Origin: Varibaculum cambriense
Lineage (GTDB): Bacteria > Actinomycetota > Actinomycetes > Actinomycetales > Actinomycetaceae
DNA length: 64,000 bases
Direction of reading: 5' to 3'
Assembly: GCF_022133705.1 (NCBI RefSeq)
Contig: NZ_JAKNHJ010000007.1
Location: 1-64,000, forward strand
A model generated the notes under the pieces. The model did no database searches. It worked only from the letters and a program-made list of their open reading frames with translations, and was not told where the DNA came from. Positions within the stretch are counted from its first letter, which is position 1, and every line of letters begins with the position of its first letter. Made by a program: the position numbers and the translations under genes. This document shows, piece after piece, positions 3,984 through 64,000 of this stretch.

Positions 3984-6900
3984 CTAGATTTCTTCCAAAG
4001 AAACATTGGGGTTTGGCCGCGAGCCAATATTGATCCCCAACTCTTCGCTGGCACGCTCAGCACCGTCATCGTCTTCAGCCAGGGACACCACATTATCTTC
4101 GGCGTCTAAGGCCTCCACATTCAGGCAGAGGGAGCGCATTTCTTGTATGAGGACGCGGAACGATTCCGGAATGCCAGGCTGCGGAATATCCTCGCCCTTA
4201 ACAATCGCCTCATAGACCTTCACGCGGCCGGTAATATCATCCGATTTCACGGTGAGCAGTTCCTGTAGCGAATAGGCGGCGCCGTAGGCCTCCATCGCCC
4301 AAACTTCCATCTCGCCGAAACGCTGGCCGCCGAACTGGGCTTTACCGCCCAAAGGCTGCTGCGTAATCATCGAGTAAGGCCCGGTGGAACGAGCGTGAAT
4401 CTTGTCGTCTACCAGGTGGTGCAGCTTCAGCATGTACTTGTAGCCCACCGAAATCGGGTAGGGGAACGGTTCACCGCTGCGTCCATCAAATAGTTGCGCT
4501 TTACCGTCTTCGTTGATGAGGCGATCCCCATCCGCGTTCGGGCGGGTGCAACTGAGCAGACCGGTCAGCACGTCCTCTTCCACACCGTCGAATACCGGGG
4601 TGGCCACCTTTTGACCGGCAGGAGCCGACAGCCCTTCCTTGGGGAGTTTCTCAATCCACTTGGCGCCTTCTTCTGCCAGCAGGGAAGTATCCCAACCCTG
4701 GTGAGCAATCCAGCCCAAGTGGAACTCCAGAACCTGACCGATGTTCATACGACCAGGCACACCCATGGGGTTCAAAATAATGTCAACCGGAGTGCCGTCC
4801 TCTAAGAAAGGCATATCTTCGATCGGCAGAATCTTGGAAACCACACCTTTATTACCGTGACGACCAGCCATTTTATCGCCAATGGTGATCTTACGGCGCT
4901 GCGCGACATAGACGCGCACCATGTGTTTTACCCCGGGAGGTAGTTCGTCGTCTTCATCGTTAAACTCGCGAACCCCGATTACAATCCCGGTTTCGCCGTG
5001 CGGCACGCGCAGTGAAGTATCCCGCACCTCGCGGGCTTTCTCACCGAAGATGGCGCGCAGTAGGCGCTCTTCACTGGTCAGCTCGGTTTCACCCTTCGGG
5101 GTTACTTTCCCGACCAAAATATCGCCAGCCTGTACCTCGGCACCGATGCGGATGATACCGCGCTCGTCCAGGTCAGATAGGGCGTCCTCGGAAATATTAG
5201 GAATATCGCGAGTGATTTCTTCTAGCCCCAGCTTGGTTTCGCGGGCATCGATTTCGTGTTCTTCGATATGGATCGAAGTGAGCACGTCGTCTTGGACTAC
5301 CCGGCGGGAAAGAATAATCGCGTCCTCGTAGTTGAGGCCTTCCCAAGACATGTAGGCAACCAGCAGGTTCTTACCCAAGGCCAGTTCGCCATGATCAGTT
5401 GCCGGGCCGTCAGCGATGAGATCGCCGACCTCTACCCGGTCACCGGCAGCCACCCGAACATGCTGGTTATAGCAGTTACCGGGGTTGGAGCGGTGGAACT
5501 TGTCTAGGTTATAGGTGAAGTAGGAGCCGTCATCGCACATGAGCTGTACATGCGCCGCATCGGCTTCTACGACTACCCCGGCATGGTCACTAACGATGGC
5601 TTCGCCCGCGTCCATAGCGGTGCGCCGTTCCATACCGGTACCCACTAGCGGAGCCTCGGTGGTCAGCAACGGAACTGCTTGGCGCTGCATGTTAGCCCCC
5701 ATGAGGGCGCGGTTGGCGTCATCGTGTTCCAGGAACGGAATCAGGGCGGCGGCGACTGAAGTCATTTGCCGCGCTGAAACGTCCATGAAGTCTACTTCGT
5801 CGCGGTGCATTTCCTGGGGGTCTTCCCCAGCGATCCGGCACAGTACCAGCTCTTCAGCAAAAGAACCGTCATCATTTAGCGGAGCCGAAGCCTGGGCGAT
5901 ATTGTAGCCGGCCTCTTCATCCGCGCTCAGGTAGTGAACTTCGTCGGTTACTTTCCCGTCTTTAACTACCCGATAGGGGGTTTCAATGAAACCGAAGGAG
6001 TTTAAGCGAGCATAAGTTGCCAGCGAGCCGATCAAACCAATGTTCGGGCCTTCCGGAGATTCGATCGGACACATCCGGCCATAGTGGGACGGGTGCACGT
6101 CACGAACTTCCATGCCCGCCCGGTCACGAGAAAGACCGCCCGGACCTAGCGCGGACAGGCGCCGCTTGTGGGTTAGCCCCGAAAGCGGGTTGTTTTGATC
6201 CATGAACTGGGACAGCTGCGAAGTACCAAAGAACTCTTTGATCGCGGCCACTACCGGACGGATATTAATCAGCGACTGCGGAGTGATAGCCTCCGCGTCC
6301 TGAGTGGTCATGCGTTCGCGTACCACGCGTTCCATCCGGGAAAGCCCGGTACGAATCTGGGCTTGGATTAGTTCGCCAACTGCGCGAATCCGGCGGTTAC
6401 CGAAATGGTCGATATCGTCGGTTTCTACCCGCACATCAATGATTTCGCCGTCCTCGTTGGTGGCTGACACCGTCTGGTCGCCTTTTTGCAGCGCCAATAG
6501 GTATTTGAAACCAGCGATAATATCGTCGAGCGTCAAAGTAGAGGCGTGGATATCACTGGTAAGCCCCAGTTTCCGGTTGACCTTGTAGCGGCCAACTTTG
6601 GCCAGGTCATAGCGCTTGGGGTTGAAGTAGAAACCTTCAATCAGGTTACGACCGGCTTCTGCGCTAGCCGGCTCTCCGGGGCGGATTTTGCGGTAAATAT
6701 CTGCCCGGGCATCATCGGTGGACTGAATGTTGTCCGAATCTTTTTCCAAGGTGGAAAGCATGATCGGATAGTCTTTGAACTCTTCGCGAATTTCTTCCGC
6801 CGTCATCCCCAGGGCACGCAGGAAAATGGTGCCGGACTGTTTACGGCGCCGGTCAATACGGATGCCTACGTTTTCCCGTTTGTCGATCTCTAGTTCTAGC

Positions 6901-45472: not shown

Positions 45473-47368
45473 TCACGCATCAATGTCACCTTTGGTGAAC
45501 TGTGCGTTGTAGAGGCGGGCATACGCACCTTTGGTGGCGAGTAACTGTTCATGGGTACCGAACTCGACAATATCGCCATGTTCCATCACGAATATCACGT
45601 CACTGTCACGGATAGTAGACAGGCGATGGGCAATCACGAACGAGGTACGTCCCGCCGTAGCTTTGGCTACTGCTCGCTGAATTAGCTGCTCCGTGCGGGT
45701 ATCGACCGAGGACGTAGCCTCATCGAGAATCAGCAAGGGCTTATCGGCAAGCATGGCACGAGCAATAGTCACCAATTGGCGTTGCCCGCTAGAGAGGGCA
45801 GAATCTTCCCGAATCTCGCTATCGAGACCGTGAGGCAGCTGCGCAACCAAGTCACTGAGCCCGACTGCTTTTATCACCTGCTCCAGGCGTTCCCCGGATA
45901 CGTCCTGCCGAGAATAAACCAGGTTTTCCCGCAAGGTTCCTTGGAACATCCAGCTGTCTTGGAGCACCATCGCGAACTGTGAATCCACGTCCTCGCGGCG
46001 CATTGCAGATAGCGGGGTTCCGTCCAATAGGATTTCCCCACTGTCCAGTTCATAAAAGCGCATTAACAGGTTTACCAGGGTGGTTTTGCCGGCTCCGGTC
46101 GGCCCCACTATCGCTACGTTTTGTCCCGGTTTTACTAGGGCAGAGAAGCCGTGAATGATTTCTTTACCCCTCTGATAGGAGAAGCGGATATCCCGAAACT
46201 CGACCTCGCCCTGGGTTATTTTGCCGGTCAGCGCTGGTTTTTCAGATTCGTCCGGTAGCTCGTCCTCTTCCAGAATTTCAAAAACGCGCCCTCCGGCAGC
46301 GGCTGCTGATTGGAAGGAAGCCGCGGCAGAAGCTAGGTTCGATAGCGGCTGGGTGAAAACTCGGATATAGAGCATGAAGGCGGCGATTACGCCGATAGTG
46401 ACATGGCCTTTCACCACCAGGACTGCACCGAGTACGCATACCACCACGTAACCGAGATTTCCCACAAACCCCATGACGGGCATCATCAGCTGGGAGAGGA
46501 AATCGGCGCGCCAAGTCGCATTAAATAGTCGCTGGTTACGACGGTTAAACTCGGCAGTGGTGGCGGATCCCGCGTTATAGATATTGATGATTCCTTGCCC
46601 GGATAGGGACTCTTCGATATGCCCGTTTAGGCTGCCCAGATAGGACTGCCGGCGGATAAAGAAACGCTGGGAGAACACCATAATCACCGCGTTGAGGACG
46701 AACCCCAATAGGGTTACCCCCATACCGGCTAGTGCCATCCGCCACTCGGTGTAGAGCATCATAAATGCGGCTCCCACCAGGGTGACTACTCCGGTAATGA
46801 TAGTGGTGATTGCCGAATGCAAGGTTTGCACCAGGGTGTCAATATCGTTGGTTACCCGGCTCATAGTGTCGCCGTGACTGGTTTTGTCGAAGAAAGACAG
46901 CGGCAGGCGATCGATTTTCCGGTCAATCGCAGAGCGCATCCGCTGCCCGGTGCGTTGGGTAACCATCACCATAATCAGCGATTGCCCCAGGTTAAAGCAG
47001 AACCCTAAGGCGAGGACGAGGGTAGCCATCCGCAACAGGGAAAAGATCCTGTCCATATCGATACTGCTACGCAATCCGGCGGCAATTTCATCGGTTATCA
47101 ACCCTAGGAACATCGGCGTGACCGCAGTCAAAAGCGATCCGGCAATTGCCAAAACTACCGCTACCAGGATAGCTACCCGGTAGCGTCCTAAAAATTGGGC
47201 AAGACCGCGCACCGATTGGGAGAACTGTCCTTTCCCCGCTTTCTCATAAACGTTCCCGCCGTGGCGTCCTCCCGCGCGTACTGGTGACATTTTTTCTGCG
47301 ACTGGTTCTAGGCCGCGCCGCGCCGACTCGACTCGCCGCTCCCACCTGCTCATTTCTACGTCTTTCAT
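45473..47368 (-). CDS. Heterodimeric ABC exporter, canonical half
   Basis: A 631-residue ABC exporter half. A basic N-terminal extension of about 50 residues precedes six membrane helices (about 65-350) and the ATPase domain (about 390-625). Walker A is GPTGAGKTT, the signature is LSSGQRQLVTIARA, Walker B is LLILDEATSSVD with the catalytic Glu, and the H-loop is IAHRLS. Together with the preceding gene, which has a degenerate catalytic Asp, it forms a heterodimeric multidrug/lipid exporter of the LmrCD/BmrCD/TM287-288 type. It overlaps that gene by 4 bp. Confidence 0.9.
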   Translation of the reverse strand: MKDVEMSRWERRVESARRGLEPVAEKMSPVRAGGRHGGNVYEKAGKGQFSQSVRGLAQFLGRYRVAILVAVVLAIAGSLLTAVTPMFLGLITDEIAAGLRSSIDMDRIFSLLRMATLVLALGFCFNLGQSLIMVMVTQRTGQRMRSAIDRKIDRLPLSFFDKTSHGDTMSRVTNDIDTLVQTLHSAITTIITGVVTLVGAAFMMLYTEWRMALAGMGVTLLGFVLNAVIMVFSQRFFIRRQSYLGSLNGHIEESLSGQGIINIYNAGSATTAEFNRRNQRLFNATWRADFLSQLMMPVMGFVGNLGYVVVCVLGAVLVVKGHVTIGVIAAFMLYIRVFTQPLSNLASAAASFQSAAAAGGRVFEILEEDELPDESEKPALTGKITQGEVEFRDIRFSYQRGKEIIHGFSALVKPGQNVAIVGPTGAGKTTLVNLLMRFYELDSGEILLDGTPLSAMRREDVDSQFAMVLQDSWMFQGTLRENLVYSRQDVSGERLEQVIKAVGLSDLVAQLPHGLDSEIREDSALSSGQRQLVTIARAMLADKPLLILDEATSSVDTRTEQLIQRAVAKATAGRTSFVIAHRLSTIRDSDVIFVMEHGDIVEFGTHEQLLATKGAYARLYNAQFTKGDIDA

Positions 47369-49146
47369 GCCAACTCCTCCTCAGAGAGTTGGGACAGCGC
47401 AATTTCTCGATAAATCTTTGAGGAAGCCAATAGCGACTGATGAGTTCCCCGCTCCACGATCTTGCCGTGATCGATCACTAGGATCTGGTCAGCTTCTCGC
47501 ACAGTTGCGATCCGCTGCGCCACAATGATCTGGGTTTTGCCGCTTGCTTTCGTCGATAATTGCCCGCGAACGTCCCGGTCGGTGGCATAGTCGAGGGCGC
47601 TAAAAGTGTCATCAAAAATCAAGATTTGCGCGTCTCTAGCCACTGTCCGGGCAATCGACATCCGTTGTTTTTGCCCGCCGGAAAAGTTACTGCCCCCTGG
47701 GGCTACTTCCGCCGCGAACTCGCCCTCTTTATCGGCAATAAAATCACAGGCAGCGATGTCACCGGCCTCAACAATATCGGTGGGGGTAATGTTTTTCGGC
47801 CCTTTTCCGAAAGCAATATTGGAAGCGATAGTGCCGGTGAATAGCGTGATTTTTTGAGGTGAATATGCGATTTGGTTGCGCAGATCTAGCAAAGGAAATT
47901 CCCGCACGTCTTTGCCGTTAATCAAAACCTGTCCTTCTCGGGGATCATAAACCCGAGGAATTAGGTTCACCAGTGAGGTTTTTCCGCTGCCGGTGGCTCC
48001 AATAAGGGCTACGGTCTGTCCGCGAGCAATCTTTAGATTTATCTGGTGGAGGGCGTCGTCTTCGGCTCCGGGGTAACGGAACGAAACGTCTCTAAACTCA
48101 ATCGCCGGTTCCTGCCGGTCTGGGCAGGTTTCTTTCCCGAGGACGTGGGCGGATCTATCGCCGGTAGCTGCCGAGTCAACTAGGGAAGGTTCGCAATCGA
48201 GCACCTCCCGGATACGGCGATTTGCAACGATTGCTCGGGGAGCAAATACGAATACCATTGCCATCATCAAGAATCCGCCAATCGCCTGGGTGGCGTACCC
48301 CGAAAATACAATCATCTGCGAAAACAAGGTTATTTTTTCCGGGCCGGCAGCCGCGTTAATCATGAAAGCACCCAGAACATAGATCGCCAGGTTAAGCCCG
48401 GATATCACCGTGTTCATCACCGGCATCATGAAGGAGAAAGTGCCGGATACGATTAGGTGCGTGTTGGTTAGTTCGGTGTTGGTGGCTTCAAAACGCTGCT
48501 CGTGGAAATCGTGGGAGCCGTAGGCACGGATAACCCGCACCCCCTCCATATGTTCGCGGGTTACTCGGTTCAGGTCGTCAGTGATCCGCTGCATCCGCAT
48601 CATCCGCGGCATCACGATTCGCCAAATGATGAAAATCATGACCAGCAGTATTAGCGCCGCCACCCCGGTGGCGGCGGTCCAAGTCAGGTTCTTCCCGGCG
48701 ATTTTTATGATTGCCCAGATGGCGAGGATGGGGGCTTTCACCATCATTTGACACCCCATCACCACAAACATTTGCAACTGAGTGACATCGTTGGTGGAGC
48801 GGGTAATTAGCGAGGGCGCGCCGAAACGGTCAAAGTCTGCTTGCGGGAGGGAAATCGCTTTTGTAAACACTGCTTGCCGTAGGTTGCGGGCAACGGTGGC
48901 GCCAATCATGGCCATGCAATAACCGGTGACTATGGCTACTACCATGGATCCGGCGGCGCAGCCGAGCATTTTTGCGCCTTCCGATAGCACCCCGCTGACG
49001 GTAGCACCTGGTTTCACAATCATTTCGGTGATGGTTTGCATGAAATCAATCAGGCGCAAATCTAAGAAAACCTGGCAAATAATGGTGATAATCGCCAGCG
49101 CGCTGAGCAGCCATTCTTTTTTACCTAGGTGCCGCACTACGGTCAT
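47365..49146 (-). CDS. Heterodimeric ABC exporter, degenerate-site half
   Basis: A 593-residue ABC exporter half with six membrane helices (about 12-315) and an ATPase domain (about 350-590). Walker A is GATGSGKTS and the signature is FSGGQKQRMSIART. Walker B reads LIFDDTFSALD, with Asp where the catalytic Glu normally sits, as in the degenerate halves of heterodimeric exporters; the H-loop position reads VAQRIA, with Gln in place of His. The substrate is unknown. It is the first gene of the pair, and its upstream gap has the rplL terminator. Confidence 0.9.
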   Translation of the reverse strand: MTVVRHLGKKEWLLSALAIITIICQVFLDLRLIDFMQTITEMIVKPGATVSGVLSEGAKMLGCAAGSMVVAIVTGYCMAMIGATVARNLRQAVFTKAISLPQADFDRFGAPSLITRSTNDVTQLQMFVVMGCQMMVKAPILAIWAIIKIAGKNLTWTAATGVAALILLVMIFIIWRIVMPRMMRMQRITDDLNRVTREHMEGVRVIRAYGSHDFHEQRFEATNTELTNTHLIVSGTFSFMMPVMNTVISGLNLAIYVLGAFMINAAAGPEKITLFSQMIVFSGYATQAIGGFLMMAMVFVFAPRAIVANRRIREVLDCEPSLVDSAATGDRSAHVLGKETCPDRQEPAIEFRDVSFRYPGAEDDALHQINLKIARGQTVALIGATGSGKTSLVNLIPRVYDPREGQVLINGKDVREFPLLDLRNQIAYSPQKITLFTGTIASNIAFGKGPKNITPTDIVEAGDIAACDFIADKEGEFAAEVAPGGSNFSGGQKQRMSIARTVARDAQILIFDDTFSALDYATDRDVRGQLSTKASGKTQIIVAQRIATVREADQILVIDHGKIVERGTHQSLLASSKIYREIALSQLSEEELA

Positions 49147-49190
49147 TATCTAGCACCTCCCTCTTGTTAAGATTAGCTTCTTTATAAAAG

Positions 49191-49221
49191 GGCGGTGCGG
49201 GGAAAATCTCCCCGCACCGCC
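49191..49221 (-). terminator. Terminator after rplL
   Basis: 49191-49203 and 49209-49221 form a perfect 13-bp GC-rich stem with a 5-nt loop. On the minus strand CTTTTAT follows, so it terminates the rplJ-rplL message. Confidence 0.85.
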
Positions 49222-49246
49222 TTTAAAAGTAAGAGACTAACTAGCC

Positions 49247-49636
49247 TTACTTCAGAGTGACAGAAGCACCCGCGCCTTCCAGATCAGCCTTGGCCTTTTC
49301 AGCGTCTTCCTTGGAAGCGCCTTCCAGGATGGTGGTCGGAGCGGAGTCAACCTTCTCCTTGGCTTCTTTCAGAGCCAGTCCGGGCTGCAGGGCGCGCAGA
49401 GCCTTGATTACAGCGATCTTCTTGTCGCCAGCGCCTTCAAGCACTACGTCGAATTCGGTCTTTTCTTCGGCTGCTTCTTCGCCACCGGCAGCACCGGGGG
49501 CAGCAACAGCGACAGCAGCGGGAGCTGCGGCCTCTACATCGAAGACGTCCTCGAATTCCTTAACGAACTCGGACAGTTCCAACAGAGTCATTTCTTTGAA
49601 AGCATCAATTAGCTCTTCTTTGCTGAGCTTAGCCAT
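49247..49636 (-). CDS. rplL: 50S ribosomal protein L7/L12
   Basis: A 129-residue stalk protein. The N-terminal dimerisation helices ([21 protein letters not shown]) join through an Ala/Glu-rich hinge to the C-terminal domain with [20 protein letters not shown] and LGLKEAK-type sequence (here [14 protein letters not shown]). It recruits translation factors to the ribosome. It follows rplJ after a gap of about 64 bp and ends at the hairpin 49191-49221. Confidence 0.98.
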
Positions 49637-49700
49637 ATTGGCATTCCTTTCTTTTTGCCCACGCGAGGCAGATTTTTTCTTGTCGATCTATGCGGCCTTA

Positions 49701-50222
49701 CTAAGCCGCTTTTTCCTGCTTTTCGCGCAGGGCGTCCACGGTGCGAACCGCCTTGGAGGCGGGCGCCTTGAACATAAAGGCAGCCTGTACCAGTTTGCCT
49801 TCCATTGCTCCGGCCAGTTTGGCCAGCGTAGTTTCGCGATTGTCCAGTTCAGCGAGTTTCTTGACTTCATCTGCAGACAAGAAATTCCCGTCGAGGACAC
49901 CGCCTCTAATAACCAACTGCTCGTTATCCTTGGCGAAGTCGCGCAGCACTTTGGCCGCATCCACGGCCTCTCCGGTTACGAACGCGATTGCGGTCGGGCC
50001 GGTTAGCTCCTCGTCCAGGAAGTCAATTCCCTGGTTCTTGGCGGCAATCCGGGCCAGCGTGTTCTTCGTGACGGAATATGTAGCCGTTCCTGCCAGGTTT
50101 TTGCGCAGCTCAGTCATCTGAGCCACGGTCAACCCGCGGTATTCGGTGAGCAGCAGGGCCGATGCGGAGCTGATTTTTTCTTCCAGCTGAGCGATCATGG
50201 CTTGCTTATCAGCTTTCGCCAT
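49701..50222 (-). CDS. rplJ: 50S ribosomal protein L10
   Basis: A 173-residue ribosomal protein. The start is the ATG at 50222 (MAKADKQAMIAQLEEKISSA), with GGAGGG in front; the longer frame to 50285 reads through the leader hairpin. ALLLTEYRGLTVAQMTELRK and YSVTKNTLARIA are family blocks. L10 anchors L7/L12 dimers to the ribosome and represses its own message by binding the leader. It is separated from rpoBC and from rplK/rplA in this genome. Confidence 0.97.
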   Translation of the reverse strand: MAKADKQAMIAQLEEKISSASALLLTEYRGLTVAQMTELRKNLAGTATYSVTKNTLARIAAKNQGIDFLDEELTGPTAIAFVTGEAVDAAKVLRDFAKDNEQLVIRGGVLDGNFLSADEVKKLAELDNRETTLAKLAGAMEGKLVQAAFMFKAPASKAVRTVDALREKQEKAA

Positions 50223-50380
50223 TAGGCCCTCCTTCCGTTTATCCGTGCCGGGGGCCAGAACAAGAAAACCCCGTGCAGATTGCACGGGGCGAAAATAAAC
50301 CTACCGATCCTAGCTGCTGCCCTCCCGAAGGGGAAGGACGTCCTCTTTTACGAGGGCGCGCAACTATTTTCGATACGTTA
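50223..50380 (-). promoter_or_regulatory. L10 leader with attenuator
   Basis: The minus-strand leader of rplJ holds a GAGGACGTCCTTCCCCTTCG segment (about 50320-50350) that resembles the L10(L12)4 binding region of ribosomal protein leaders. A downstream terminator follows at 50264-50289. It probably lets L10 shut off its own operon. The 5' boundary is approximate. Confidence 0.65.
50264..50289 (-). terminator. Attenuator in the rplJ leader
   Basis: CCCCGTGCA and TGCACGGGG form a perfect 9-bp stem with a 3-nt loop, followed on the minus strand by TTTTC. It lies between the leader and the rplJ ribosome site. Confidence 0.8.
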
Positions 50381-50607
50381 CGCATCGTTCAACCTACACA
50401 GGCTTCCGATCTGGAACTTAAACCCACTGGTGTGGGCACCGGCGATCTTGGGCAATAGCCAATTTAACAGCCCCTTTCCCGGCAGGTCAAAGCAGAAGGG
50501 CAGGATATGCCCTTTTGTGGGTTATTTAACGAGTAGCCGATTGGTTTACGAGACAGCACCGCTTAGCCACAGGTAGCGCTTACGTAACCCACCCCCGCAA
50601 ACCTCAA
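50381..50607. other. Spacer between rplJ leader and AlbA_2 gene
   Basis: No gene is seen. The rplJ promoter should lie here on the minus strand but no confident boxes were found. A 7-bp stem (AAGGGCA at 50496-50502 with TGCCCTT at 50508-50514) is the only clear structure. Confidence 0.4.
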
Positions 50608-50685
50608 CCCATTCAAGCTCTCAACTCAACTCTCAACTAAGCTCTCAACTATATGAGAGTTAAGTTGAGAGCTTAGTTGAGAGTT
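50608..50685. repeat. Upstream copy of the TCTCAACT palindromic repeat
   Basis: A composite of five TCTCAACT/AGTTGAGA octamers. 50629-50651 and 50664-50686 are approximately a perfect 23-bp inverted repeat around a 12-bp spacer. The whole block matches 52212-52290 in the same orientation at about 93 percent by eye. Its right arm contains the TTGAGA -35 box of the AlbA_2 gene. Confidence 0.85.
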
Positions 50686-50700
50686 AGTAAAATAGCTTTC
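50665..50700 (+). promoter_or_regulatory. Promoter of the AlbA_2 gene, likely leaderless
   Basis: TTGAGA (50665-50670) and TAAAAT (50688-50693) are 17 bp apart. The GTG start at 50701 lies 7 nt after the -10 box, where transcription should begin. The -35 box is part of the palindromic repeat, so a bound regulator would block the promoter. Confidence 0.7.
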
Positions 50701-52197
50701 GTGCAGGCACCAATAAATCGCGATGAGCTGGACATACTCATAGAGGAAATTCGCCTCGGCGGTCAAGACACCCAACAGGTGGAAGTTAAAGAGGCTGCTG
50801 GCGGACTCCCCAAATCCATTCTTGAAACCCTTTCTGCGTTCAGTAATGGCGCTGGCGGGATTATTATTCTGGGATTACAAGAACAGAACAACTTCGCTTA
50901 CAGCCCTCAGTTCAAAGCGAAAGCAATCTATGACGCGCTCGCAGGAGCTTGCAACGAAAAACTAACTCCCCCAGTGAGAGCGGAAATAAACTTACTACCT
51001 TATTCCGGTAAACAACTGGTGGTAGCAACTGTTCCCGCCCTGCAGCCACGCGATAAACCCTGCTACGTAACCAGCAAACACATTTACGGCGGTTCATTTA
51101 TTCGTACCGGCGATGGTGACCGCCGGCTGTCTGCATACGAAATTGACCGGCTTCAAGAAAATAAAGCTCAACCTAGTTGGGACAGTGAAGTCATCACCGA
51201 GAGCAGTCTGGACGATTTGGATTCTCAGAGCACAGCAGCCGTGTTACGTCGAGAACGGGAAGCTCATCCTCGGATTTTTGGCAAACTTGCTGACGAAGAT
51301 GCAATGAAGCAACTCAAGATTGTTGGAATGGGGACAGATAAAAAGCTCCACCCCACTTTGGCAGGTTTGCTGGCTTTAGGCATTTACCCGCAACAGTATT
51401 TTCCCCGCTTAACCGTTACTTACGCGGTTTATCCCGGGTCTACCAAAGCGGCAGCGCCTTCAGGGCAGCGACATCTTGATTCGGGAACTCTGGTGGGATC
51501 TATCCCCGCACTGGTTGCGGACGGAGTGGAAGTGGTGGCAAAAAATATGCGCATCGGAGGAGTCATCCAGGGAGCATTCCGGCGCGACCTCGTCGATTAT
51601 CCTTTAGTCGCAGTACGAGAGGCGCTAACTAATGCGCTGATGCACAGAGATTATTCCCCGGTAGCGCGCGGAACCCAGGTACAGCTAAACCTGTATGCAG
51701 ATCGCCTGGAAGTATTAAACCCCGGGGGACTATTCGGCACGGTCACGCTAGATTCTTTGGGAAAACCGGGGCTATCTTCCGCTCGAAACCAATTCTTATC
51801 ACGCCTTTTAGAAGTAACCCCTTACGAGGACGGTGGCTTCGTTGCCGAAAACCGCGGTAGTGGCTACCAGGAGATTCTCTCTCAGTTAGAGCAGGACATG
51901 CTGCCACCACCACGTCCGGTAGATAGGCTAGACAGTTTCAGCCTAACTTTTGAACGCCGCCAAATGACCCTTGCCGAACGCGGAGCAGCAGCCGGTACTT
52001 CCTCAAGAGGGCGCATATTGGACTACCTGCGCACCCACAAGACCGCTAGCAGTAGAGAACTGGCAGCCGCAGCTGGCATCAGCGTAGGCGGTACCAGAGC
52101 GATTATAAATTCGCTGGTCAAATCCGAAACTATTGCCCGCACCGAACCGGCAACCAGCCCTAAACAACGATATCGGTTATTAAGCAAAGAAGATTAA
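50701..52197 (+). CDS. AlbA_2 (Schlafen-like) ATPase with winged-helix tail
   Basis: A 498-residue protein read from the GTG at 50701, which coincides with the expected transcript start; an ATG-started frame from 50653 would begin inside the operator repeat. The AlbA_2 domain is at about 15-140 (EVKEAAGGLPKSILETLSAF), followed by a RecG-like/HATPase region (about 290-400, REALTNALMHRDYSPVARGT, LEVLNPGGLFG) and a C-terminal winged helix (about 440-495, HKTASSRELAAAAGISVGGT). The family is predicted to be a transcription regulator or stress/defence factor, with function mostly unknown. Matching palindromic repeats lie before and after the gene. Confidence 0.85.
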   Translation: MQAPINRDELDILIEEIRLGGQDTQQVEVKEAAGGLPKSILETLSAFSNGAGGIIILGLQEQNNFAYSPQFKAKAIYDALAGACNEKLTPPVRAEINLLPYSGKQLVVATVPALQPRDKPCYVTSKHIYGGSFIRTGDGDRRLSAYEIDRLQENKAQPSWDSEVITESSLDDLDSQSTAAVLRREREAHPRIFGKLADEDAMKQLKIVGMGTDKKLHPTLAGLLALGIYPQQYFPRLTVTYAVYPGSTKAAAPSGQRHLDSGTLVGSIPALVADGVEVVAKNMRIGGVIQGAFRRDLVDYPLVAVREALTNALMHRDYSPVARGTQVQLNLYADRLEVLNPGGLFGTVTLDSLGKPGLSSARNQFLSRLLEVTPYEDGGFVAENRGSGYQEILSQLEQDMLPPPRPVDRLDSFSLTFERRQMTLAERGAAAGTSSRGRILDYLRTHKTASSRELAAAAGISVGGTRAIINSLVKSETIARTEPATSPKQRYRLLSKED

Positions 52198-52601
52198 GGG
52201 GAGGATCTCACCCCATTCAAGCTCTCAACTCAAGCTCTCAACTTAACTCTCAACTATATGAGAGTTGAGTTGAGAGCTTAGTGGAGAGTTCAGTCGCCGG
52301 GGCAGCAATCACGCTACCCTGCCGACTATCGCAATCTGATTTTCATAACCGCTCACATAAACTTCACCCCAAGATTGAAGCTCCGAAAAACCAGTATGTG
52401 CGCAACCTCATAAACAGGCTTTCACGGCCTAGGATAAAAGACCTACGGCCAAAATATGGGGAAAAGCAAAATATTGATTTTGCATCAAGAGTTTAGTGGT
52501 TATAGCCTACTTTCACGCTTCGCTGGAAAGATAAACTTTTATTTTCCTCCTAGTCGTTTAGTCCCAGATTTTGTAACCATCATTATTACAGGAGTTCCTC
52601 T
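52198..52601. other. AlbA_2 to symporter intergenic region
   Basis: A 404-bp gap. The first part holds the downstream palindromic repeat (52212-52290). The rest (52291-52590) is AT-rich without a gene or convincing promoter boxes. AGGAG lies 7 nt before the symporter ATG. Confidence 0.5.
52212..52290. repeat. Downstream copy of the TCTCAACT palindromic repeat
   Basis: A 79-bp block in the same orientation as 50608-50685, with the same order of octamers (two or three TCTCAACT, then ATATGAGAGTT, then GTTGAGAGCTTAGT). It begins 14 bp after the stop of the AlbA_2 gene. A duplicate operator after the gene is unusual. Confidence 0.85.
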
Positions 52602-56807: not shown

Positions 56808-59800
56808 TTATTTTTCCCTGAAGCTATCCGGATTAGCCAGCAATTCCGCTAAATGCACTCCTCCTCGGCCAGCCAAAGTCTCGGCCTGTGTGCGGCAAGA
56901 AAACCCATCCGCCAAGAAAACCGCGTCCGGGTTGGCTTTTAGCTGTGGTAGGAGGGCGTGCTCGGCTACCGCCAACGACATCTGGCGGTGCGAGGCTTCC
57001 ATCCCGAAGTTACCGGCCATCCCGCAGCATCCTTGCAGTTCCACCAGCTTAGCGCCAGTTTTCTCTATTAGGGCGCGATCAGCTTCCCAACCCATCACTG
57101 AATAGTGGTGACAGTGCGGTTGGGCGACTACTTTCATCCCAGTGAGATCAGGTAAGCGCAGGTCAGGACAGTTGGCATTAATGAATTCGGCGAGGGTAAA
57201 GGTTGCTTCCCTAACCATTAGGGCGCGGGGATCTGCGGGGAGGAGTTCTAACAGGTCATCGCGAAGCACTGCCGTACATGAGGGCTCGATTCCCACAATG
57301 GGGATACCGTTGGCAGCTGGCGGCGCCAGTCGCGCCAATAAATTTTCGAGGTGTCGCCTGGCTCCTTTAAGTTGCCCGGTGGTGATCCAAGTCAGCCCAC
57401 AGCAAGTATCTGGCGGTGCCAAAAACACCTGCCATCCTGCCTTGCTCAGCAACTGAATAGCGGATTTGACTCCGCGTTGATCTAGTCCTCGGGAAAAAGA
57501 ATCCGCCCAAATCACCACGGATTTAGAGGCCGAAAGCGCCACCTGCCGAGTTCTTTTTCCGGCTTTAGCTTCTTCGGTAGGCACTGTAGCTTCGATCGTG
57601 CGGGATTGCTTTTGCCGCCAGGGCGAGACTGCTGATTCTTTCGGCCAAAGTAGCTGGTTCGGATATTGACTCTCTAAAGAGTGAGTCGCGAAACGAGGAA
57701 GCGTCCGGGCGGTATCCAAGTGGAGCAGCTTTAGAGCAGCCCGGGTTAGCGGGCGAATCTTAGTAGCCAAATTTGCTAGCTGCCTGGCTCCCGGTATTTT
57801 TGCCATTAGGCGCAGCCAACGCGGCAACCATCCCAGGGCATAATGGGAAAGCGGACGCGGCCGTCCCTGGTAGCGCCGGAATAAGGTTTCGCTGCGCCAC
57901 TTGGCCATATCCACCCCGGCAGGACAATCTGCTGAACACGCCTTACAGGCCAGACACAAATCGAGTACCTGCCAGATTTCGGGGTCTGACAATCCGTGAA
58001 TTAGTCCCCCATTGGTGGCTTCTTGCAGGATACGCGCCCGGGCGCGAGTAGCGTCCTGCTCCCGCTGGCTTGCTTGGAAAGAAGGACACATAAACCCGCC
58101 GGCTCCGCTGTTATCGGCACGGCATTTTCCCACCCCGGTGCAGCGATGGAAAGCATCGGTAAGGCTGCCGGCGTCCTCGGAAAAAGCGAAACCTTCCGGG
58201 TGGGCTTTCAGGGCGTGTGCCTGGGTACGCCGCATATTTACTTCCACTCCATCCGGACCTGCCGGGCCGGTCAACACCCCGGGATTCATCAGATTTTCAG
58301 GATCAAATAGGGCTTTCACCTGCGAAAATAAATCTACTGTCTGCGAGGAGTACATTTTGGGCAGCAGCTCAGAGCGCGCCCGTCCGTCCCCGTGTTCTCC
58401 GGAAATCGAGCCACCGTATTTTCCGACTAGCTGCGCGGCGGCAAATAAGAAATCTCGCGATTTGCCGAGTCCTGCGGCGCTGCCCAGGGGCATATTGAGC
58501 CGTACATGTACGCATCCGTCCCCGAAATGCCCATACAGCAGTCCATCCAACCCGAACTTTTCTAGCAGCTTTTGGAAATCCTGCAGATAGGCGGCCAAAT
58601 TTTCAGGTGGTACTGCCGCGTCCTCCCAACCTGGCCAGGCCTGGTCACCTTTAGGAGTGCGTCCCCCCAGTCCCGCTCCATCTGCGCGAATCCGCCAGAG
58701 AGCAGCCGCATCGGCGCCGGGGGGATAAATCATCACTGCATTCCCGCTCGCTCCGGAGGCTGCCGCGAGTTCTCGCGCCCGTCGCATAGTCGCGTCCTCA
58801 TCTATACCTCCTCCGCCGACCTCACACAGTAGCCAACCACTACCGTGGGGTAAATCTGGGACTGCGCCCGGACCTTTATGCTGGCGCACTACTTCCACTA
58901 GCCGAGCATCCATACCCTCCACTGCCAGGGGCTTTAAGGGGAGGATTTTAGGTACGGCGGCGGCAGCGGCAATCATATCGGGGAAACCTAACGCTACCAG
59001 CACGGGAGCTTTGGGAATCGGTACGAGGCGCACGGTTGCCTGAGTGAGAACCCCCAAAGTACCCTCGGTTCCGGTCAGGAAAGGGGCGAGGGCGCAGCCA
59101 TTTTCTGGTAGCAGATGTTCCAGGGAATAACCGGATACTTGTCGCCCAAAGCGTCCAAACTCGGTACGAATCGTAGCTAGATTGGCTTCTACCAGGGATT
59201 TTAAGCCGGGAATTTGTTTGATTTGTTCGCTGTGCGAGGACGGGTCATGCGGGGGAATTGAGTCGGCATTTTGCGGGGTCTGCCCGGCGATAATCTCGCG
59301 CCCTAGCCCATCAATTAACCGCAACTCTAAAACGTTATCGGAGGTGCGCCCATAGGCGGTGGCGTGGGGCCCGCAAGCATTGTTACCAATCATGCCGCCG
59401 ATAGTGCAGCGAGAAGAGGTGGAAGGATCGGGCCCGAATCGTAAGCCGTATTCCGCGGCCGCCTGCTGTAACTGGGATTGGACTACCCCTGGTTCTACGA
59501 TGGCATAACGCTTTTCGGGATTAATTTTTATGATTCGATTCAAGTGGCGCGAGTAGTCGATTACTACTCCCGGGCCAATCGCATTTCCTGCACACGAGGT
59601 ACCTGCTCCTCGCGCCGTCACTGCTACTCGGCATTCCCGAGCAGCCTGCAGCAGTATCCGCAGATCGTCTTGATCTAATGGGCAGGCAATAAGTTTGGGA
59701 GGAATCCGATAGTTCGAGGAATCCGTGGCATAGACGGCACGGTCAGCGCGGGAATCTAGGAGTTCGCCGCGAAATTTTTCGCGCAAGATAGAGCGAAATC

Positions 59801-59828
59801 TATGGTAGTCACCTGCCTTGATACCCAT
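56808..59828 (-). CDS. YdiJ-like FAD-linked dehydrogenase with Fe-S and CCG domains
   Basis: A 1006-residue oxidoreductase. The start is the ATG at 59828 with GAAAGG upstream; the open frame begins at 59897. An FAD_binding_4 domain (about 40-215, VTARGAGTSCAGNAIGPGVV) and FAD-oxidase C-terminal domain (about 240-540, GHFGDGCVHVRLN, GSISGEHGDGRARSELL) are followed by two 4Fe-4S clusters (CTGVGKCRADN, CLACKACSADCPAGVD) and CCG domains (CCGLTWITTG, QGCCGMAGNFGM). This is the layout of E. coli YdiJ, an about 1018-residue D-2-hydroxyacid dehydrogenase family. D-lactate or D-2-hydroxyglutarate is the likely substrate. Confidence 0.9.
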   Translation of the reverse strand: MGIKAGDYHRFRSILREKFRGELLDSRADRAVYATDSSNYRIPPKLIACPLDQDDLRILLQAARECRVAVTARGAGTSCAGNAIGPGVVIDYSRHLNRIIKINPEKRYAIVEPGVVQSQLQQAAAEYGLRFGPDPSTSSRCTIGGMIGNNACGPHATAYGRTSDNVLELRLIDGLGREIIAGQTPQNADSIPPHDPSSHSEQIKQIPGLKSLVEANLATIRTEFGRFGRQVSGYSLEHLLPENGCALAPFLTGTEGTLGVLTQATVRLVPIPKAPVLVALGFPDMIAAAAAVPKILPLKPLAVEGMDARLVEVVRQHKGPGAVPDLPHGSGWLLCEVGGGGIDEDATMRRARELAAASGASGNAVMIYPPGADAAALWRIRADGAGLGGRTPKGDQAWPGWEDAAVPPENLAAYLQDFQKLLEKFGLDGLLYGHFGDGCVHVRLNMPLGSAAGLGKSRDFLFAAAQLVGKYGGSISGEHGDGRARSELLPKMYSSQTVDLFSQVKALFDPENLMNPGVLTGPAGPDGVEVNMRRTQAHALKAHPEGFAFSEDAGSLTDAFHRCTGVGKCRADNSGAGGFMCPSFQASQREQDATRARARILQEATNGGLIHGLSDPEIWQVLDLCLACKACSADCPAGVDMAKWRSETLFRRYQGRPRPLSHYALGWLPRWLRLMAKIPGARQLANLATKIRPLTRAALKLLHLDTARTLPRFATHSLESQYPNQLLWPKESAVSPWRQKQSRTIEATVPTEEAKAGKRTRQVALSASKSVVIWADSFSRGLDQRGVKSAIQLLSKAGWQVFLAPPDTCCGLTWITTGQLKGARRHLENLLARLAPPAANGIPIVGIEPSCTAVLRDDLLELLPADPRALMVREATFTLAEFINANCPDLRLPDLTGMKVVAQPHCHHYSVMGWEADRALIEKTGAKLVELQGCCGMAGNFGMEASHRQMSLAVAEHALLPQLKANPDAVFLADGFSCRTQAETLAGRGGVHLAELLANPDSFREK

Positions 59829-59985
59829 GATTCGCCTTTCGTTACTTCTGTGCCCAATCCTATCGGTTTCCGGCTTAACCCCTAAAGCCTGTCCCATTCC
59901 CAGCCCCCTGGCGCAGTGCGTTTTTCAACAGCCAGCAGCTTTCTTGCACTATGCGCGAATAGCTGTAACGTAAACGAAGTGAATG

Positions 59986-60040
59986 AAGTGTCAGAAATAA
60001 TCATTTCTGACACTTACGGGCGCCAAGGCTGACACTCAGA
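59986..60040. repeat. Downstream copy of the GTGTCAG palindromic repeat
   Basis: 59986-60015 is a 30-bp palindrome (one mismatch) with AAGTGTCAGAAATAA arms, followed by CGGGCG and a further GGCTGACACT half-site. It lies just past the 3' end of the Fic gene. The similarity with 61415-61469 continues in weaker form to about 60085, across the Fic stop codon. Confidence 0.85.
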
Positions 60041-60066
60041 GCATTCCCCCAGGTAATAACCCTCTT

Positions 60067-61395
60067 CTAACTGTCAACGTGATCATTGGCGCCCGAACTA
60101 AGCGATTTTTGCCACCCCGGTACTACCCGCCAAACAACCCAGCGGCCTTTGCGTCCTCTACTTAAAAACCCCATCTCTTCCAGAGAACTTAAGTCACCAT
60201 GCCCGCTAGGACGAGATACCCGGAATCGCTCCGCCACCATCTGCGCCGTCCATAGTTTTTCTGGCTCCCCCCGAGATTCCAACAAGATATCGATTTGCCG
60301 ATTATTTAAGTCGGCGCGATCTTTTAACCTGCCCTTAAGCTCCGCTACCTGACGGAGATCATCCGCTAGATACTTCTCCAGTTGCTCCACTGCTCTGCGG
60401 AGGATTTGCAGCTGATAAATAAGAAAATAGGTAAGATCTCCGCCGTCGTATTCTACATTCAAGAAAGCCCGCGCATACTGGGCGGGAGCTTTCTTTAGCA
60501 GCGAGGAAACCACCAAAAATCTGGCTGCCGGAAAATCTGCTTTCAATAGCATCCAATAGAACAGGGACCGCGCAGTTCTGCCGTTGCCATCAGCAAAATA
60601 GTGATCGTAGCCCACCATGAAATGTACAACCATCGCTTTCAGTAGCGGGTGCATCCACGGATCAGAATTATTTATGAAGTCACACAGCTCCTGTATACGG
60701 GCAGGTAACTCACTTGCCGGCGGCGGAACATAAATAATCTGGTTTGAGTCTCCAAATATCTTTACCCGGTCATTCTGATCAGACTGTATCGTGCCCGCAT
60801 CACTTGCTATCTCTAAAGTTCCCTCCGTAACGGTGCGGTGCAGGTCTTTAATGAAATCGGGAGTAGCCTTACAATCCAGCAAGCCCTGTAGATTCTCCAT
60901 TGCCAAATAGTTATTAACTATCATTCTTTCGCTGACATCTTTAGGCTCACGGTTTTGTTCCAGCAGCTGCCGGGCAACCCGCCGCGAGGTAGATGCCCCC
61001 TCTAGCTGGGCAGAATAAATGGCTTCATCGGTCAATCCGTTGTAAATGAACTTGTCACGCTGATACTCAGATACGCTCGTGTCCAAACTAGATAACTTTT
61101 GACTCAAGAAGTAACATTCTCGAGAAATAAAAGCGGGAAGGCAATAATGGAAGGGTTTTCCCGACTGCTGCTTGAGGTCAATCGGAATCGCATTATTTTG
61201 CCGCTGCAACCGAACGATCCCCCACCATTGAGAAATACTTAAATCAAAGGGAGGGGTTTGGTGGCGAAACTTATCCCAAGGATCATAGGGCTCAAGAGAG
61301 CTTTGCCCCAAGGCTGCAGCAAGATCACCGCCGAGGGTTTTTGCGGCACCGGCAAACTCCTCAATATAGTCCGGAGGCATCGCGGGAGTTTTCAT
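60067..61395 (-). CDS. Fic-family protein with winged-helix tail
   Basis: A 442-residue Fic protein, presumably an AMP-transferase acting on a cytoplasmic target. The catalytic motif HYFADGNGR is at 265-273. An inhibitory helix with SAQLEG (S128, E132, G133) lies N-terminal to it, so this is a class II, self-inhibited Fic. A C-terminal winged-helix-like region (about 370-430, DLNNRQIDILLE, MVAERFRVSRPSG) follows, as in Fic regulators that bind DNA. There is no antitoxin gene beside it. GGTGGAG precedes the ATG. Same-orientation palindromic repeats lie on both sides. Confidence 0.88.
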   Translation of the reverse strand: MKTPAMPPDYIEEFAGAAKTLGGDLAAALGQSSLEPYDPWDKFRHQTPPFDLSISQWWGIVRLQRQNNAIPIDLKQQSGKPFHYCLPAFISRECYFLSQKLSSLDTSVSEYQRDKFIYNGLTDEAIYSAQLEGASTSRRVARQLLEQNREPKDVSERMIVNNYLAMENLQGLLDCKATPDFIKDLHRTVTEGTLEIASDAGTIQSDQNDRVKIFGDSNQIIYVPPPASELPARIQELCDFINNSDPWMHPLLKAMVVHFMVGYDHYFADGNGRTARSLFYWMLLKADFPAARFLVVSSLLKKAPAQYARAFLNVEYDGGDLTYFLIYQLQILRRAVEQLEKYLADDLRQVAELKGRLKDRADLNNRQIDILLESRGEPEKLWTAQMVAERFRVSRPSGHGDLSSLEEMGFLSRGRKGRWVVWRVVPGWQKSLSSGANDHVDS

Positions 61396-61414
61396 ATCTC
61401 CACCCTAGCAAATA

Positions 61415-61469
61415 AAGTGTCAGAAATAATTATTTCTGACACTTCCGGGCGTCAAGGCTGACACTTAGA
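61415..61469. repeat. Upstream copy of the GTGTCAG palindromic repeat
   Basis: 61415-61444 is a perfect 30-bp palindrome (arms AAGTGTCAGAAATAA), followed by CGGGCG and GGCTGACACTTAG. It lies 20 bp upstream of the Fic start codon. The same order and orientation recur at 59986-60040. Confidence 0.85.
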
Positions 61470-61627
61470 TTATCTATCCAGGTAAACGCTGTCCGGAACT
61501 GTCAGCACGAGTAATACCCGATAAAACCCGACGCAGAATTTTTGTCACCAGTAGGGCGTGGAAGCGTCAGGACTAGCAGAGCTAATGGAGGACAAGAGAG
61601 CTAGTAGAGCTAATGGCGAAAAATGAA

Positions 61628-61658
61628 GGGAGTCGGCGGGATAATCCCGCCGACTCCC
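61628..61658. terminator. Perfect 14-bp hairpin
   Basis: 61628-61641 and 61645-61658 pair perfectly with a TAA loop. It lies between divergent Fic upstream sequence and the 3' end of ppdK; probably a ppdK terminator. Confidence 0.65.
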
Positions 61659-61759
61659 CGGGGTGTTATCAAAATAGCTTATGAACTAGACCAGTGGGTC
61701 AGCAACATCCATCACGATAGTCCCAAGAGTCAGTAGCTATCACCGACTCAACCGGTCAA

Positions 61760-61815: not shown

Positions 61816-64000
61816 TTAGGCAGTAGCATCCTCTCCGGAACCCTCGATATTTTCCAAAGCCACTACGCGTCCAGCCTCCAGGCGGGCAACTGCTACCCGG
61901 AACGGCGAGCAGGACACGTAATTCAAACCGGTCTTGTGGAAGAAATGAATCGATTCTGGATCGCCACCATGCTCACCACAAACACCCATCTTCAGCTCTG
62001 GTTTAGTAGAGCGACCGCGGCCGACACCTTCCTTGACCAAACGACCCACACCATGAGTATCAATCGTTTCGAAAGGAGAAGTTCCAAATACGCCCTCTTC
62101 AATGTACTTGGGGAAGAACACACCCTCACAATCATCGCGAGAGAAACCCCAGGTAGTCTGAGTTAGGTCATTGGTTCCGAAGCTGAAGAAATCAGCTTCT
62201 TTAGCCATAGACTCGGCGGTAATCGCAGCGCGCGGAAGCTCGATCATACAACCAATCGGGATATCCAATTCCACACCAACTGATTGAGAAATCTCGTCAA
62301 TAATCGCCTGAGCGCGGTCACGGATAATTCCCAGCTCAGTAATCGAGCCCACCAAGGGCACCATAATCTCCGGGCGCGGATCCCGACCCTGCTTCTTCAA
62401 CTCTGCGGCGGCAGACACTAATGCATGAATCTGCATTTCAAACAGACCCGGCATCCACATGCCCAACCGCACCCCACGCAAACCTAGCATCGGGTTAGCC
62501 TCATGCATCTTTCGCACTGCAGTGAGCATCCGCTGGTCATCCGGATTTACCTTGCCTTCAGCTTTTTGCAGAGCCACTTTAACCTCTAGACCAGTCAAAT
62601 CTGGCAGGAATTCGTGCAGCGGGGGATCAATCAACCGCACCGTCATCGGCTTGCCGTCCATAACCTGCAGCATTTCCACAAAATCCTGCTGCTGACGCTG
62701 ACCCAACTGACCGAGAGCGTCTTTACGGTCAGCCGAACCCGGCTCCGAAAGGATAGCGTGTTCAACCAGCGGACGGCGATCGCCTAAGAACATGTGTTCC
62801 GTACGGCAAAGCCCAATCCCTTTAGCTCCAAAATCTACTGCTAGCTGTGCGTCCTGCGGATTATCGGCATTAGCGCGCACCTGCAAGCGGGCACGCTTAT
62901 CTGCCAGTTCCATCATCCGGTCTACGCAACGCACCAAATCTTGCAAATCAGCATCGTTGTCACAAGCTTCAAGACCCGCAGTTAGACCGCTCTCCAAATA
63001 GGTAGTTACCGGGGAGTCTTGAACCGGAACCGCACCCTCGAACACTTCACCGGTTCCGCCATCAATCGCGATCATGTCGCCTTCGTGGAAGGTCTTGCCT
63101 TCAACGGTCAAAGTCCCGGCTTCTGCATCAATCTCTAGAGATTCCGCGCCACAAACACAGGTCTTGCCCATACCGCGAGCCACTACCGCGGCGTGAGATG
63201 TCTTACCGCCGCGCGCTGTAAGCACGCCCTCAGCAGCGACCATACCTGCCAAATCGTCAGGATTCGTTTCCCGCCGCACCAAAATACAGGATTTACCGGC
63301 ATTCTTTGCGGCCTCGGCCTGTTCGTTATTAAATGCAACTCCGCCCACGGCAGCCCCGGGAGAAGCCGGCATACCGCGAGTTAGCCGTACCCGCACGGCA
63401 TCAGTATCGAACTGGGGGAACATCAACTGGGTGAGCTGTTCACCGGTGACGCGCTCTAGCATCTGATCCTTGGTGATTAGACGTTCCTCGTTCAGTTGAA
63501 CCGCAATCCGGAAAGCAGCCGCTGCTGTCCGCTTACCCACGCGGGTCTGCAGCATCCACAGCTTGCCTTTCTCGATGGTGTACTCAATATCGCACATATC
63601 CTGGTAGTGAGTTTCCAGTTTGCGCATAATCTTGATTAGCTGATTGTAAACCGGCTCATTTACCGTCTTGAGGTGAGAAAGAGGCTCGGTGTTACGGATA
63701 CCGGCAACCACGTCCTCGCCCTGAGCGTTCATCAAGAAATCACCGTAAACACCTGATTTCCCAGTTGAAGGATCCCGAGTAAAGGCCACACCGGTACCCG
63801 AATCGTCACCCATATTCCCAAAGACCATGGTGCAGATATTCACCGCGGTCCCCAAGGAATTCGGAATCCGTTCGCGGCGACGATAAATCGCTGCCCGCTC
63901 GGTATTCCAAGACCTAAATACGGCTTCAATCGCCATATCCATTTGGGTGCGAGGATCTTGCGGGAAATCATTCCCGGTCTGTTCTTTAACGATCTGTTTG
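61816..64000 (-). CDS. ppdK: Pyruvate phosphate dikinase, 5' end outside window
   Basis: The C-terminal 727 residues or so of pyruvate phosphate dikinase, which interconverts pyruvate, ATP and phosphate with phosphoenolpyruvate. The frame is open to the window edge (EQTGNDFPQDPRTQMDMAIE upstream of the first in-window Met), so the gene is cut by the edge, not broken. The phosphohistidine domain has GGKTSHAAVVARGMGKTCVC, and the PEP-binding TIM barrel has LCRTEHMF, GTNDLTQTTWG and the catalytic Cys in GVCGEHGGDP. It is probably about 880-900 residues in full. Two hairpins follow its stop. Confidence 0.96.
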   Translation of the reverse strand, partial: KQIVKEQTGNDFPQDPRTQMDMAIEAVFRSWNTERAAIYRRRERIPNSLGTAVNICTMVFGNMGDDSGTGVAFTRDPSTGKSGVYGDFLMNAQGEDVVAGIRNTEPLSHLKTVNEPVYNQLIKIMRKLETHYQDMCDIEYTIEKGKLWMLQTRVGKRTAAAAFRIAVQLNEERLITKDQMLERVTGEQLTQLMFPQFDTDAVRVRLTRGMPASPGAAVGGVAFNNEQAEAAKNAGKSCILVRRETNPDDLAGMVAAEGVLTARGGKTSHAAVVARGMGKTCVCGAESLEIDAEAGTLTVEGKTFHEGDMIAIDGGTGEVFEGAVPVQDSPVTTYLESGLTAGLEACDNDADLQDLVRCVDRMMELADKRARLQVRANADNPQDAQLAVDFGAKGIGLCRTEHMFLGDRRPLVEHAILSEPGSADRKDALGQLGQRQQQDFVEMLQVMDGKPMTVRLIDPPLHEFLPDLTGLEVKVALQKAEGKVNPDDQRMLTAVRKMHEANPMLGLRGVRLGMWMPGLFEMQIHALVSAAAELKKQGRDPRPEIMVPLVGSITELGIIRDRAQAIIDEISQSVGVELDIPIGCMIELPRAAITAESMAKEADFFSFGTNDLTQTTWGFSRDDCEGVFFPKYIEEGVFGTSPFETIDTHGVGRLVKEGVGRGRSTKPELKMGVCGEHGGDPESIHFFHKTGLNYVSCSPFRVAVARLEAGRVVALENIEGSGEDATA

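Follow-up and report, generated by a model that had tools for sequence, protein, structure and literature searches.

Two described Fic proteins come closest to the one considered here. According to the available text of PMC12249575, SoFic is an AMPylating toxin that acts in abortive infection against phages, and an antitoxin, AS1, is encoded downstream of Sofic; that text mentions no repeat bracketing the gene. CccR of Yersinia pseudotuberculosis is, in the available part of its description, an autorepressing Fic toxin that carries a C-terminal HTH and binds inverted repeats within the promoter of its own gene, the boxes being 10 bp long and 26 bp apart, and no downstream copy of the box is described there (PMC9755527). 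Word searches of open-licence papers returned no description of a gene flanked on both sides by its own operator. Fic toxins that repress themselves and defences made of a single gene are already known; what was not found described is their combination with an operator bracket.

The Fic gene analysed here lies in the window (the whole 64,000-nucleotide stretch of DNA that was analysed) and encodes a SoFic/CccR-like class II Fic protein with a C-terminal winged helix. Its locus, and that of a second gene of the window with a similar arrangement, comprise the following features.

50603-50685, plus strand: upstream repeat of the AlbA_2 gene, with CTCTCAACT half-sites (repeat search, half-site survey).
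50677-52197, plus strand: AlbA_2 - HATPase_c_4 - wHTH gene, 506 aa (Pfam).
52207-52290, plus strand: downstream repeat of the AlbA_2 gene (repeat search, half-site survey).
56808-59897, minus strand: oxidase gene (FAD-linked oxidase/(Fe-S), D-lactate dehydrogenase kind; name inferred from sequence), the next gene downstream of Fic (ORF list).
59986-60078, minus strand: downstream block, in the same orientation as the upstream block; palindrome at 59986-60015.
60067-61395, minus strand: Fic gene, 442 aa (ORF list; Pfam Fic, 2.8e-16).
61415-61506, minus strand: upstream block, the putative Fic promoter-operator; palindrome at 61415-61444, half-sites at 61458-61465 and 61498-61505.
61426-61455, minus strand: candidate promoter, TTGACG - 18 - AATTAT, with the second hexamer at the palindrome centre.
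61816-63942, minus strand: pyruvate, phosphate dikinase-like gene (ORF list, alignments; name inferred from sequence).

The oxidase gene, recovered by orthologue search, and the dikinase-like gene on the other side of Fic served as orthology anchors.

The initial annotation had taken the protein for a class II (self-inhibited) Fic that ends in a winged helix, and motifs and structure prediction bear out both the class and the domain. The Fic motif HxFx(D/E)GNGRxxR is present as HYFADGNGRTAR, with H265, F267, D269-R273 and R276 invariant in seven sequences. The inhibitory motif (S/T)xxxE(G/N), which is the defining mark of class II Fic, lies N-terminally as S128..E132-G133 and is invariant in the alignment of seven sequences. 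The AlphaFold model (mean pLDDT 80.1 with six sequences in; the five models spanned 57.4 to 80.1) predicts a C-terminal winged helix at residues 365-424, built of three helices (365-376, 384-391 and 395-407) followed by two strands (411-416 and 419-424) with a pLDDT of 80-93 in these blocks; Pfam HTH hits on the protein are sub-threshold only. The PADLOC SoFic profile (PDLC03963) matches residues 96-416 (4e-41, 139.6 bits), and the NCBIfam SoFic equivalog scores 38.4 bits against a cut-off of 550. The best fold matches include the SoFic structures 3zcn and 3eqx, at whole-chain TM-scores of about 0.5, and PDB 7xux, which judging by its length and date is probably CccR, is also among the fold matches. 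The protein is SoFic-like and is not filed here as SoFic. Like SoFic, it joins a Fic core to a C-terminal helical/winged domain; among ORFs of at least 60 aa, none that could correspond to the antitoxin AS1 lies between the stop codon of Fic and the oxidase gene. With CccR it shares inverted repeats at its own putative promoter, but the half-sites are 8 bp long and 12 bp apart, with two more outside the palindrome.

The repeat that brackets the gene has a 75-nt core (59982-60056 and 61411-61485; 85% identity, same orientation, 1429 bp apart) that was evident both on reading the sequence and in the repeat search. By local alignment the full repeat measures about 92-94 bp, from -109 to -15 relative to the start codon and from -10 to +85 relative to the end of the stop codon. 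The weaker similarity noted earlier across the stop is thus real, as the repeat continues over about 94 bp through the Fic stop codon and the far end of the downstream block overlaps the last codons of Fic and its stop. Each block contains the 30-bp palindrome AAGTGTCAGAAATAAT(T/C)ATTTCTGACACTT, followed by a CTGACACT half-site at offset 42, and 19 bp separate the upstream palindrome from the Fic ATG. The palindrome had no match in 100 shuffles of the window, and a search of the genome that allowed up to 3 mismatches found it nowhere else. Fic is the sole ORF between the blocks, and the unit contains no transposase or recombinase gene. The upstream block is probably the promoter-operator of Fic; the promoter signal itself is weak, since the region contains two promoter-like matches where 2.1 are expected by chance. 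In simple transposons and gene cassettes, too, repeats enclose a gene that a given site may have or lack, but here the repeats are direct and operator-like, transposase and recombinase are absent, and a complete repeat stays behind at the empty site. By the features tested a transposon was rejected because the unit lacks a recombinase, its repeats are direct rather than inverted and each genome has a single site.

Both the palindrome and the additional half-site at a fixed distance, claimed from one genome, recur in the genus. A survey of all nine genus blocks, with nothing dropped, finds the CTGACACT half-site at offset 42 with at most one mismatch in eight of them (it is missing in G001), and, at the same tolerance, a fourth half-site, an inverted CTGACACT at offset 82-83, in five; a random 100-bp stretch of the window contains 0.045 such half-sites on average. 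These offsets approximate whole helical turns, which would place the half-sites on one face of the helix. Within a genome, the identity of the two Fic blocks is 0.91 (G004), 0.87 (G005) and 0.78 (G000, the genome of the window), and blocks of G004 are 0.71-0.73 identical to those of G000 and G005. Strict concerted evolution is ruled out because the orthologous blocks of G000 and G005 (0.85 and 0.89) agree better than the two copies within G000, and the blocks have evolved only partly in concert.

The copy number of the block goes with the presence of the gene. Sought at up to 3 mismatches in 200 family genomes, the palindrome occurs in six, which are exactly the genomes of the window's genus, and in none of the other 194. 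The Fic carriers G000, G004 and G005 have two blocks, 1429 bp apart, and the Fic-less G001, G002 and G003 have one; all six sites are orthologous and lie beside the oxidase gene. Since both flanks are shared between G003 and G004 (251/299 positions on the left, 260/300 on the right), the G003 site equals that of G004 minus the gene and minus one block. The empty-site sequences match those predicted by recombination between the blocks. The initial annotation had proposed looking in relatives for empty sites with a single block, and for Fic homologues with matching flanks: the Fic-less species all hold one block rather than two at the orthologous site (3/3), and both congeneric orthologues, in G004 and G005, have the matching flanks (2/2). 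The outcome that was to count against the proposal, two blocks without the gene, is not seen in the Fic genus, a near case being a pair of AlbA_2-type operators in G148. The lone block of G001 is decaying, its offset-42 and distal half-sites being gone. It is conceivable that the lone blocks persisting in G002 and G003 have some other use.

The comparison with the AlbA_2 gene, which had been said to be bracketed by an unrelated repeat, also stands, and it proves general among the sampled relatives and in a test of 268 ORFs. AlbA_2 - HATPase_c_4 - wHTH proteins ('ATP-dependent DNA helicase RecG-like'; PF04326, PF13749) share with the Fic protein the bracket, a C-terminal DNA-binding domain and one-block empty sites, whereas their enzyme domain and operator sequences are unrelated to those of Fic. 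At the site of the window's AlbA_2 gene, whose repeat is unrelated in sequence to the Fic block, inspection by eye finds that G002 and G004 each have one similar block near the symporter, that the block of G001 is decayed and that G003 has none. Brackets were scored by the repeats that the two flanks of a gene share on the same strand, and a gene was flagged when its score lay more than 3 above the highest of 30 shuffles (50 shuffles and a margin above 2 in the local alignment of the genus loci). Among 43 window ORFs, three were flagged: Fic, AlbA_2 and a weak third. The 268 ORFs of the window's contig and G005 gave eight flagged genes, five with a score of at least 30, and these five strong brackets belong to two Fic orthologues and three AlbA_2-HATPase-wHTH genes, of which two are orthologues of each other and the third, G000:C65:66264-67685, lies just outside the window; similarly, the five genes flagged among 45 ORFs of the nine-genome loci are all Fic or AlbA_2.

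Across the family sample, the Fic relatives divide into 11 of 27 that are bracketed, this genus supplying three, and 16 that are not, and 19 of 40 AlbA_2 genes are flagged and 21 are not, a count that becomes 16-19 of 40 if L123, L132 and L142 are set aside as weak. The bracketing repeats differ among subfamilies and comprise many different sequences. On the AlbA_2 tree the bracketed genes cluster, yet 7-10 changes are needed. Outside the family only one of 11 testable Fic relatives was flagged (two of 13 loci were too short), so that, in a sample with few other bacterial families, bracketing seems to be characteristic of this one. Distant Fic homologues on Vibrio and Persicobacter plasmids have no bracket, an Ilyobacter homologue has a 152-bp repeat far from the gene, and an archaeal homologue one of 20 bp. 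An E. coli population search with a Klebsiella homologue gave short matches only, none of 92 records covering 80%.

In a second genus the same result is seen at an AlbA_2 site. With up to 3 mismatches allowed, the operator of one AlbA_2 subfamily, CTACTSTAACAATGTTASAGTAG, is present in 26 of 200 genomes, and in genus g17 its site lies between genes named from their sequence as hydrolase-like and aldo/keto reductase-like. Base-by-base alignment of the flanks there shows block, gene and block in G021, two blocks around a shortened AlbA_2 gene in G072, and one block without the gene in G112 and G127. The AlbA_2 gene of G095 is intact with an upstream block only, which indicates that the bracket is not indispensable and that the gene can persist without the downstream block. 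The orthologous site of G138 has neither block nor gene, so that the two probably arrived together. Of 27 loci with this type of operator, 17 have an AlbA_2 match of at least 332 residues, one has a 43-residue remnant and nine have none, the last figure being uncertain because L199 is near a contig end and L202 beside a masked stretch. The pair in G148 (L200, one of these nine; L217 = G148:C6:99000-108000) consists of operators at 4197 and 4396, 199 bp apart, without an AlbA_2 match in the locus.

The scenario that we favour, and hold to be somewhat probable, is that Fic represses itself at its own block and that recombination between the blocks deletes the gene, leaving a single operator as a scar. 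Fic would be a solitary self-regulated gene related to those of SoFic and CccR, with each block of about 92 bp acting as its promoter-operator. A Fic dimer would bind the block through the C-terminal winged helix and so occlude the gene's own promoter, and the downstream block would be an equal binding site. As direct repeats, the blocks could recombine with each other, which would remove the gene and one block, and the single operator left behind would correspond to the state of one block and no gene that comparison finds at the orthologous site of relatives. As long as the gene is in place, the downstream block may support a DNA loop, act as a roadblock, control a second promoter or be a recombination partner only. 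As the architecture recurs in the unrelated AlbA_2 family with other block sequences, the two kinds of bracket would represent a class of autoregulated, dispensable genes rather than one repeat family, and the bracketed genes are probably defensive.

The main rival to such a deletion is entry of Fic at a lone block. The one-block state would then be ancestral and an incoming or circular block-gene unit would recombine with the resident block as a docking site, which we consider unlikely. It accords with the one block at all three empty sites of the genus, with the nine gene-less loci among the 27 that have the AlbA_2-type operator, and with the synonymous divergence between G000 and G005, where dS is 0.251 for Fic, 0.508 for the oxidase gene and 1.34 at the median of 27 computable gene pairs. 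Between G000 and G004, however, Fic has diverged as much as the neighbouring gene (dS 1.08 and 0.98), as would be expected if the gene had long been resident and was lost later. The AlbA_2 gene of the window also has a low dS between G000 and G005 (0.225), but so do the three genes to its left (0.17-0.32; 45473-50006), and its low value thus belongs to a larger recombined segment. A gene-precise exchange between G000 and G005 was rejected since these three genes are equally low and the oxidase gene is intermediate. The site of G138, lacking both block and gene, also argues against insertion, although decay could account for it. On both neighbour-gene trees the presence and absence of Fic needs two changes, and one change sufficed in 0/200 bootstrap trees; the well-supported branches alone force only one, the backbone of the single-gene tree being weak, and this weak support for two changes leaves room for gains at the same site.

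It is also possible, though rather doubtful, that Fic is an ordinary local regulator with one operator before itself and another before a downstream target, so that the lone block would be the target's promoter. At the three sites examined in greatest detail the next gene is indeed co-directional: the oxidase after Fic, the symporter after the window's AlbA_2 gene and, after the AlbA_2 gene of G021, the aldo/keto reductase-like gene, whose ATG is about 55 bp from the block. However, with crude ORF calling and rows L123, L132, L142, L154 and L158 left out, the next ORF is co-directional for 16/27 bracketed and 20/33 unbracketed genes, which gives no support to a downstream target as the general reason for a second block, and in G001 the block decays while the oxidase gene remains. 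Very unlikely is that the palindrome acts as an RNA hairpin, an attenuator or terminator, rather than as a DNA operator. Folded as RNA, the palindrome and its tail reach -15.7 kcal/mol (z -7.8), and compensatory differences separate the paired palindromes in three of seven pairs examined (three such differences in L171, one each in L168 and L150) with none in L159, L153, the window and G004. But no terminator-like site was called at either palindrome, and the half-sites at offsets 42 and 82-83 lie outside the hairpin at helical spacing, where an operator needs them and a hairpin does not. Changes that keep both palindromes palindromic in some relatives would suggest that both are in use; as proof of selection on both, the three pairs of seven are only suggestive.

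In the literature covered by the searches no description was found of such a bracket occurring in two unrelated enzyme families and with many operator sequences, or of a one-operator scar after loss. If deletion between blocks is indeed at work, operator scars would reveal past losses of defence genes in genomes now without them, and the gain and loss of such genes in the absence of mobile-element machinery would have an explanation; the bracket also supplies a predicted binding site for each such protein. A decidedly tentative proposal is that block, gene and block form the smallest exchangeable defence cassette: self-repressing and probably toxic genes of two unrelated families would carry a second operator copy that lets homologous recombination eject them when harmful, with the leftover operator as docking point for re-acquisition, and the operator would thus serve both as a switch and as a site of recombination.

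Several smaller observations concern the surroundings of these genes and further brackets. A strong minus-strand terminator-like hairpin at 61627-61659, at the end of the dikinase-like gene, has similar sequence in G002, G003 and G004 and is ordinary. Between the block and the dikinase-like gene, G003 and G004 (L062, L063) share about 1 kb that the window lacks and that may contain a gene for a membrane protein. The low-dS stretch at 45473-52290, four genes of which AlbA_2 is the last, stops at or near the AlbA_2 downstream repeat. A third bracketed AlbA_2-HATPase_c_4 gene, with CTACTGGAAAA-type half-sites, lies just past the window (G000:C65:66264-67685; L264:2264-3685); its product has sub-threshold HTH hits and was identified only after the bracket scan. 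Its relative in G005 (L057) is bracketed by a 139-bp repeat. Finally, 28 further Fic loci yielded four flagged genes (L025, L026, L034 and L035), of which L034 alone has both of its repeats near the gene; this locus, in G023, encodes a shorter Fic of another kind (364 aa) bracketed by a 61-bp repeat.
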